DNA of 32,579 nucleotides, from contig JAEOTP010000031.1 in assembly GCA_016839765.1 (NCBI GenBank), forward strand, positions 1-32,579. The letters are read 5' to 3'. The translations under genes were made by a program, and so were the position numbers. This DNA is from Promethearchaeota archaeon (lineage in GTDB: Archaea; Asgardarchaeota; Lokiarchaeia; Sigyniarchaeales; SOKP01). Shown piece after piece: positions 30,588 through 32,579 of the stretch. The stretch's first letter is position 1, and every line of letters starts with the position of its first letter. Below the pieces are notes generated by a model. That model saw nothing but the letters and a program-made list of their open reading frames with translations, made no database searches and was not told where the DNA came from.

Positions 30588-32579
30588 TTATTTCAATTTT
30601 TCATATTCATTTGCTTTGTTAGTTAATCTTTTTACCTCTTTTGTCATATCCGTAACTCCTAATTTAAATATCTCAGATGCAATTTTAGAGGCTTGTTTGT
30701 ATTTCTGAGCCGCTTCGAGATAATTTTTCTTTTTCACTGCAAGTTTAGCTTCATTTTCAAATTGTTTTTTCTTAAGTGTTAGATCTTCTATCTTGGTTTT
30801 ACGAGTTAATTCTTCTAACTGCATAAATTCTTTAGATAACTCCCAGTTTGAAGCGATCAATGCAGCCTCTTGGAAGATTTCAATGGATTTTAGATAATTT
30901 TTCTTACTTTTTGCCTTTTTAGCTCGATTAAATAACTCCTTTATCCCGTTTTTAGCTTCTTTCTTATTGGCTATTTCAACGGTTCCAATTTTTGATTTAA
31001 TAGGAGCAGAAACTATTTTATGGCGCTCAGTAATACTAGAAAGATAAGCTTCTCTTTCAACAGGACCCACTTGTGCCAAATCGTTTACTAACTTTTGTTT
31101 TTCTTCAGATGAGAGCGTAGTTAGTTGTGAAACCTTTTGATTAATTAGGTTTATCTCTTGTTGTGAAATTGGTTGTGCTTCAAGTGCGGAAATTTCAATA
31201 GGAATTAACATCTTCTTATCCCTTAATTCTTTAATTCCCATAAAAATTTCAGCAGTATCTTTATTCGTTCTTTCTGAAGCCTCTTTTAATAATGTGGCTA
31301 TAAAAAAGAATTGCCTATCAGCTTCTTCGCAACAAGAATGAGCTATTTTTAATACCTCTTTCGAATGGGGATTCTTGAGCTCCTTAATACTCGAAAAATC
31401 ATATGATATTTGATGTGGTAAAATTATAGATGTACTTAATAGATCGTCAACTATTTGACCAGAATTTCTAAAGTGAGCCAATTGACCCCTCCAATTAGGT
31501 AAAACATCTTTATATGTCTTTTCAAATACATTAATAAATTCCTTTAAGTTTCTTCGAAGGATTAATGAGGCTTTTTTAGTTAGGACTAATGCAATTCTGA
31601 TATATTCACCATCAGCCAAAAGCAGCATTTTATCTCCATATGAAATTTCATTTAAAGCTTCTTGAGCAACCATTTCTCTACCAAATGAAGAAACAGCCGT
31701 TAAAAATCCACCTATCAATTCTGGGTCAATCTGTTCTGATCCATATGATTTAAAGTATACACAAGTTCCAGTCTCTTTGTATAATACTAAAATGTGTTCT
31801 AAATTGATTGCATCATCAAAAATTGTTTTAACTTCATTTAGAATTCGAGCTTTCTCTCTCTTTTTTGGAGCAATAACGCCTCGATGAATAGCTACAGCTG
31901 CAACAATTCCAATTACTACAATTGCGGCTATTATTATATAGGGTAGTAATTCTTTCAAACTTAGACCAGAAGGCGGTATTATATTAATATCTGAAATTTC
32001 ACGAGAAAATTCTTGATGATTATAGGCACTACTTAATTGAATTGTTAAATTCAATGTACTAGTATCACTATAGGTTGGAATTGTAAATTCTACTTCTCCA
32101 GTGCTATTGGTGGAATAGGGGCCTAAAATTGTGCCTGCTGCGCCATTATAGTATGGAGTTATTGTTATACTTGAACCATTAATTGGTACCCAATCAGAAC
32201 CATTGAAATATTCTGCCTTGATAACAATTGTGAATGGAAGTCCTGCATTTACACTATCGGGCACTACTGCTGTTAAATTAGCTTGATATCTGTCTATTAC
32301 CGTTAGATTAAACATAAAATAAACTTCTTCATAATTCAGTTTGTTAATAGTAATATTTAATTCGTAATTTCCTATTGTTAATGCTGGATTTGAGGTGGTA
32401 ATAGATCCTCTATGATTTTGGGATATGATCTGAAATGAGTTGGCAAGTGTACCATTATCTCCTGTATTAATATTTCTATAGTAGACCGTATAAATATCTG
32501 CCAAAGTTGATACTAATTGATTATTATTCTCCAAATCGGTTATATTGAACTCAACAGTGATATCACTTCCTTCAAAAAT
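30588..32579 (-). CDS. Receptor-like membrane protein: glycosylated beta-rich ectodomain, TM helix, longin/roadblock-like and TPR/MIT-like domains (N-terminus cut off)
   Basis: The reading frame is open to the window edge, so the true start lies beyond 32579; the visible part is 663 residues and the TTG near 32534 is internal. About the first 205 residues look like extracellular beta-sandwich (Ig-like) modules with nine N-x-S/T sequons. One membrane helix follows (about 212-231, LLPYIIIAAIVVIGIVAAVAI), with KKREKAR behind it marking the cytoplasmic side. Next comes a domain of about 130 residues (ILVLYKETGTCVYFKSYG, LIGGFLTAVSSFGREM) with the profile of Asgard longin/roadblock-like sensors, then a helical linker. 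Last are two repeats, RAKKAKSKKNYLKSIEIFQEA and EAKLAVKKKNYLEAAQKYKQA, resembling TPR or MIT hairpins. I see no sequon after the membrane helix. It may link surface binding to an intracellular partner; function is inferred. Confidence 0.7.
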   Translation of the reverse strand: MFEGSDITVEFNITDLENNNQLVSTLADIYTVYYRNINTGDNGTLANSFQIISQNHRGSITTSNPALTIGNYELNITINKLNYEEVYFMFNLTVIDRYQANLTAVVPDSVNAGLPFTIVIKAEYFNGSDWVPINGSSITITPYYNGAAGTILGPYSTNSTGEVEFTIPTYSDTSTLNLTIQLSSAYNHQEFSREISDINIIPPSGLSLKELLPYIIIAAIVVIGIVAAVAIHRGVIAPKKREKARILNEVKTIFDDAINLEHILVLYKETGTCVYFKSYGSEQIDPELIGGFLTAVSSFGREMVAQEALNEISYGDKMLLLADGEYIRIALVLTKKASLILRRNLKEFINVFEKTYKDVLPNWRGQLAHFRNSGQIVDDLLSTSIILPHQISYDFSSIKELKNPHSKEVLKIAHSCCEEADRQFFFIATLLKEASERTNKDTAEIFMGIKELRDKKMLIPIEISALEAQPISQQEINLINQKVSQLTTLSSEEKQKLVNDLAQVGPVEREAYLSSITERHKIVSAPIKSKIGTVEIANKKEAKNGIKELFNRAKKAKSKKNYLKSIEIFQEAALIASNWELSKEFMQLEELTRKTKIEDLTLKKKQFENEAKLAVKKKNYLEAAQKYKQASKIASEIFKLGVTDMTKEVKRLTNKANEYEKLK

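Follow-up and report, generated by a model that had tools for sequence, protein, structure and literature searches.

A frame at the edge of a Lokiarchaeal contig of 32,579 nucleotides (the window, here the whole stretch that was analysed) is best explained as encoding the C-terminal portion of a very large receptor or adhesin that stands on the cell surface and spans the membrane once; its longin domain would most likely dock or regulate small GTPases, a reading to which we give an even chance of being right. A glycosylated array of macroglobulin- and Ig-like beta-sandwich repeats would stand outside the cell, one helix would pass through the membrane, and the 426-residue tail would form a docking platform composed of a longin of the MON1/FUZ type, two C-terminal three-helix units resembling MIT or TPR, and a winged-helix-like segment between them. 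Computation supports the topology, the longin homology, the helical units and the conservation; we infer ligand binding by the ectodomain and GTPase regulation by the longin, and the ectodomain is presumably glycosylated.

The putative receptor gene and its full-length orthologues

The 663-residue frame reads from 32579 down to 30588 on the minus strand, exactly as placed in the first-pass annotation of this DNA, and its 5' end is truncated by the contig end. Since the window is the entire contig C3 of its genome (3.32 Mb, 96 contigs), the 5' part of the gene is irrecoverable from that genome. A TTG start at 32534 was considered and rejected, because the frame continues unbroken as far as the contig edge and the orthologues are far longer. 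Protein searches identified close relatives in many Lokiarchaeia, with apparently complete frames of about 1,550–2,270 aa, and the missing 5' part corresponds to about 900–1,600 codons in these orthologues. The full-length orthologues have a common layout: a lysine-rich and hydrophobic, signal-like N-terminus, 1,100–1,800 aa of sequon-rich sequence, a single helix through the membrane, then a basic stretch and the tail. Counted from the end of the PKK[RK]EK motif, the tail was 425–427 aa long in every untruncated orthologue. It is conserved, whereas the ectodomain varies among orthologues in both sequence and length; mean column identity was 77% in the tail versus 51% in the membrane-proximal ectodomain. 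The features of the window protein are collected in Table 1.

Table 1. Features of the receptor gene and its product in the window
Feature	Residues	Position	Strand	Remarks
C-terminal 663 codons and stop of receptor gene		30588..32579	-	Frame open to contig edge
Extracellular beta-sandwich-like repeat (sequons 12, 42, 75, 91)	1-100	32280..32579	-	Module of about 100 aa
Membrane-proximal macroglobulin-like (MG4) beta-sandwich	109-183	32031..32255	-	Pfam PF17789
Single transmembrane helix	211-231	31887..31949	-	Kyte-Doolittle hydropathy 2.9; sole strong hydrophobic segment
Basic stop-transfer stretch HRGVIAPKKREKAR	232-245	31845..31886	-	PKK[RK]EK in all orthologues covering the region
Longin domain (predicted)	260-382	31434..31802	-	hhalign to Pfam-recognised Loki longins
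Winged-helix-like segment	401-464	31188..31379	-	Helix-helix-helix-strand in model, pLDDT about 68-86
First three-helix TPR/MIT-like unit	539-596	30792..30965	-	Model pLDDT above 90
Second three-helix MIT-like unit, conserved ASEIFKLG	597-663	30591..30791	-	Model pLDDT about 90 or more

Topology

The first-pass annotation had read an outside-in, single-pass topology from nine sequons before the membrane helix, none after it and a basic cluster behind it, and all of these observations were reproduced: sequons lie at residues 12, 42, 75, 91, 101, 126, 134, 158 and 177, none follows the helix, and the basic stretch HRGVIAPKKREKAR stands directly after residues 211-231. Compared with shuffled sequences, the nine ectodomain sequons represent a modest excess (4.7 expected, P about 0.02), and their absence from the tail is by itself not significant (2.4 expected, P 0.075). 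Across 21 orthologues, which being related do not give independent counts, there were 1092 ectodomain sequons versus 479 in shuffles and 44 tail sequons versus 47, so that sequon enrichment was found outside only. As the orthologue tails sit at expectation, the lack of sequons after the helix in the window sequence is partly luck. Taken together, the enrichment confined to the outside, the positive-inside basic stretch and the N-terminal signal support a receptor family that is predicted to be single-pass, with the N-terminus outside and the C-terminus in the cytoplasm.

The ectodomain

When the ectodomain was scanned alone, its membrane-proximal part scored 27.4 bits against the Pfam MG4 model (PF17789, cut-off 24.7), and MG4 matches at E≤0.1 were seen in 9 of 21 orthologues. 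The repeat at residues 1-100 had a weak match to the PKD domain of KIAA0319L (E 0.034). Further copies of this module, about 40% identical, were present in three orthologous loci (L057–L059), and such extra copies partly explain why the ectodomain varies in length.

The predicted longin domain

The domain of about 130 residues behind the membrane helix, which recurs in many paralogues, had been described as longin- or roadblock-like; the first half of that description held and the second did not. With hhalign, 114 columns of the receptor domain aligned to Pfam-recognised Loki longins at a probability of 99% and an E-value of 1e-17, and a profile built from 45 family members gave a probability of 99.6% and an E-value of 1e-24, whereas comparison with 17 roadblock sequences from the same genome gave a probability of 9.7% (E 0.003) over 41 columns. 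The window protein itself matches no Pfam longin family, and only a few divergent relatives match one directly; profile–profile comparison is more sensitive than a single-sequence Pfam scan, and we did not take a direct Pfam match as a defining feature. Two other matches, to the ATP-grasp domain of glutathione synthetase within the longin (19 bits at most) and to CCDC22_N, fell below their cut-offs and were judged to be chance.

Loki genomes contain many proteins of ~140 aa that score above cut-off with the Pfam model of the MON1/FUZ longin (PF19036), a model that found no match in any of 14 control genomes. A profile of these solo longins searched against solved structures matched MON1 at E 9e-8, with weaker matches to SRX of the SRP receptor (0.008) and to AP-1 mu (0.03). 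This intermediate step was needed because the receptor longin profile, run directly on solved structures, returned chance helical matches only. Since the AlphaFold model of the full tail had a pLDDT of about 30 in the longin region, we argue the longin fold from profiles, and on that footing the domain is a predicted longin of the MON1/FUZ kind and not a roadblock. It aligns over its full length with the Loki solo longins, and through these it is connected to the longins of the MON1-CCZ1 and CPLANE Rab exchange factors. The eukaryotic proteins MON1, CCZ1 and FUZ are soluble and contain several longins each; the receptor longin, by comparison, is tethered behind the membrane helix of a predicted surface protein, and any exchange activity it has is putative.

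The winged-helix-like segment that comes next after the longin (Table 1) is common to longin paralogues, and a search of solved structures produced no match in support of it. Its position is one of two points in favour of reading the 130-residue domain as a PAS/GAF-like small-molecule sensor, the protein then acting at the surface as a one-component sensor whose output is the winged helix; the other is that longins share a wider fold with PAS and GAF domains (PMC4917890). We consider this very unlikely, as the profile similarity to MON1/FUZ longins is specific and covers the full length of the domain. Membership of that larger fold family does mean that a longin alone is no proof of trafficking (PMC4917890).

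The C-terminal helical units

The C-terminus had been proposed to carry a duplicated KKNYL...A hairpin resembling TPR or MIT domains. The duplication was borne out, as the two C-terminal units align to each other (hhalign probability 88%) at a spacing of 57 residues. A separate model of residues 529-663 (pLDDT 94.7, pTM 0.84) contained helices at 11-30, 34-50, 54-88, 92-111 and 117-134 in the numbering of the model, one of which, 35 residues long, spans the junction between the units. Because of this junction helix and the spacing of 57, we take the repeating unit to be three helices and not the two-helix, 34-residue TPR, and we are confident that the C-terminus, as modelled, is a bundle of two three-helix units. 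The helical hairpins of the earlier description were thus recovered, 34-residue TPR geometry was not, and the window sequence scored below the Pfam cut-off for both families (MIT PF04212 14.3 bits, cut-off 30; TPR_2 19.4 bits, cut-off 27).

Comparison of the second unit with Asgard Vps4 MIT domains by hhalign gave a probability of 90.5% and an E-value of 1.3e-6 over 36 columns (64 when extended), with a TPR profile of only five sequences as a weak control. In Foldseek the best-ranked natural structure was the tandem MIT of calpain-7 (in calpain-7:IST1; probability 1.00, E 0.03, TM 0.41), alongside which designed repeats and TPRs also scored; this search of the C-terminus gave no match at E 0.001, and TM-scores were below 0.5. 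Pfam matches were about equally frequent for the two families (MIT 12/22, TPR 14/22), and more distant orthologues carry additional TPR-like hairpins. By its modelled geometry the bundle is more likely a tandem of MIT-like units than an array of 34-residue TPRs, but the scores do not separate MIT from TPR. Repeated three-helix units are a feature that the receptor C-terminus shares with the tandem MIT domains of calpain-7 and the Vps4 family, from which it differs in the long shared helix joining its units, in scores below curated cut-offs and in a TM-score of about 0.4.

These results bear on the possibility that the protein is a sorting receptor, the ectodomain of which captures cargo or the ligands of partner cells while the MIT-like pair directly recruits ESCRT-III for budding or vesicle release. 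The three-helix tandem arrangement, the calpain-7:IST1 match and the similarity of the second unit to Vps4 MIT are all consistent with it, as is the presence in the genome of a protein with a Vps4-type MIT and of two ESCRT-III proteins (C33:84174-84659 and C57:49557-50018); Asgard longin proteins have also been tied to ESCRT domains in a 2024 survey (PMC11188069). We nevertheless regard a sorting receptor as unlikely, with scores that fit TPR as well as MIT, no significant fold match, and a gene that is not near ESCRT genes within the window. In the GTPase-docking receptor that we prefer, the C-terminal units would have a second partner, a helical peptide of which they would bind and for which ESCRT-III is one candidate; ESCRT-III binding by the MIT-like pair is possible, given the Vps4-type MIT and ESCRT-III proteins of the genome, but speculative.

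Paralogues, distribution and genomic context

A search of the receptor's own genome returned 16 matches to the window protein at E≤1. At least seven of these ~16 are single-pass with sequon-rich N-terminal parts, namely the window gene itself, three in tandem on contig C83 and single genes on C61, C28 and C95; the others include soluble forms, one polytopic protein and one fusion to an Arf/Roc-like GTPase. The products of the tandem genes (locus L140, C83:9000-19489) are paralogues, longin proteins with a single membrane pass and a length of about 760 aa. Two soluble paralogues, on C25 (460 aa) and at L124 (422 aa), carry the longin, the winged-helix-like segment and the C-terminal units with no ectodomain. 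The polytopic protein (L141:2832-5114, C67) has about ten predicted helices and a C-terminal longin of the same family, and in the fusion (L139:1125-2024, C61) a longin of the receptor's family is joined to an Arf/Roc-like small GTPase.

Across relatives, single-pass longin proteins recur at lengths of 1,300–1,950 aa. Those of the sampled genomes that have the tail at its full 426 aa all belong to the order around the receptor's own genome, more distant matches ending after the winged-helix-like segment. An orthologue is absent from several nearly complete related genomes, some of them of the same genus, so the gene is common but not universal. No relatives were found in the viral contigs searched. 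Some longin proteins elsewhere have other company: the domain set of a 1,023-aa protein at L114:3353-6421 (G052:C250) is coatomer/BBSome-like, with a longin and a zinc ribbon beside FG-GAP/BBS7-like propeller repeats and PCI and UFL1-like winged helices, and longin proteins at L117:620-3466 and L121:1527-3548 have weak matches to BBS1 GAE or coatomer-beta, one of them with a TPR array.

The gene neighbours in the window (RadA, a sugar isomerase and a kinase) give no pointer to trafficking. Where the orthologous loci extend far enough, RadA adjoins the receptor gene and the sugar isomerase comes next; this whole segment is conserved and tells little about function. Seven orthologous loci (L049:9481-9909, L050, L057, L070, L071, L073, L074) have a roadblock gene, absent from the window, between RadA and the sugar isomerase. 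In four loci (L049:184-1281, L052, L053, L073) a roadblock–Ras GTPase fusion precedes the full-length receptor gene by about 1 kb, an observation that does not enter our functional argument, and in several others a P-type-ATPase-like gene takes its place.

That no partner gene is clearly linked to the receptor in the orthologous loci suits a simpler function, in which the protein is an adhesin or envelope organiser and its tail a mere anchor, with the longin and helical units dimerising or attaching to the cytoskeleton and no GTPase being regulated. Longins and roadblocks commonly dimerise (PMC10933270), and the ectodomain is long, built of repeats and variable in length. On the other hand, the tail is more conserved than an anchor would need, copies of it exist as soluble proteins, and the same longin family is found fused to a GTPase, and we judge a pure anchor to be rather improbable, if well worth keeping in mind.

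Discussion

Our preferred reading, a receptor with a GTPase-docking tail, has the longin binding or regulating small GTPases in trans at the membrane beneath the receptor, a role modelled on the longins of MON1-CCZ1, TRAPP and the SRP receptor. We propose GTPase docking because of the homology to MON1 and SRX longins, the longin–GTPase fusion within the same family and the longin–GTPase fusions already published for Loki (PMC4917890, PMC10933270); a GTPase partner is plausible by this guilt by association. Points that weigh against the reading are the low pLDDT of the longin region, the lack of a significant fold match for the C-terminus, Pfam matches divided between MIT and TPR, gene neighbours that do not suggest trafficking, and the absence of the orthologue from several nearly complete related genomes. 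In Lokiarchaeum, 41 longins had been counted by 2016, five of them fused to Arf-like GTPases (PMC4917890). Such fusions, including the one in the receptor's own genome, contain the same longin family as the receptor, which differs in having no GTPase domain, so any GTPase would have to act in trans.

The first-pass annotation suggested that this would be an undescribed design, which is true in part. Asgard multidomain proteins joining longins with Ig-like, TPR and HTH/PCI domains, and tied to ESCRT, appear in the 2024 survey (PMC11188069), where the longin proteins are mainly combined with Vps28-C, adaptin-appendage or Steadiness-box domains; none of these three had a Pfam match in the receptor, and the survey text that we read mentions no surface receptor whose ectodomain is long and rich in sequons. 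Nor did a search limited to open papers turn up a single-pass receptor of this form, its large ectodomain rich in sequons.

Lokiarchaea have dozens of longins, and few internal membranes have been seen in them. With at least seven of the ~16 longin relatives in one genome predicted to sit beneath the membrane in large surface proteins, our results suggest that part of the Lokiarchaeal longin set works at the cell surface, and they offer a testable starting point, namely which small GTPase binds which receptor tail. It is conceivable, though we think the odds are clearly against it, that Lokiarchaea have an expanded family of transmembrane receptors coupling surface recognition to longin-regulated GTPases and, in this member, also to ESCRT-III through a tandem MIT. 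If the C-terminal units do bind ESCRT-III, this would link surface recognition with membrane budding in the closest archaeal relatives of eukaryotes, and if the wider scheme is true, the receptor would be a one-protein forerunner of a receptor-to-trafficking coupling that was later spread over separate proteins in eukaryotes.
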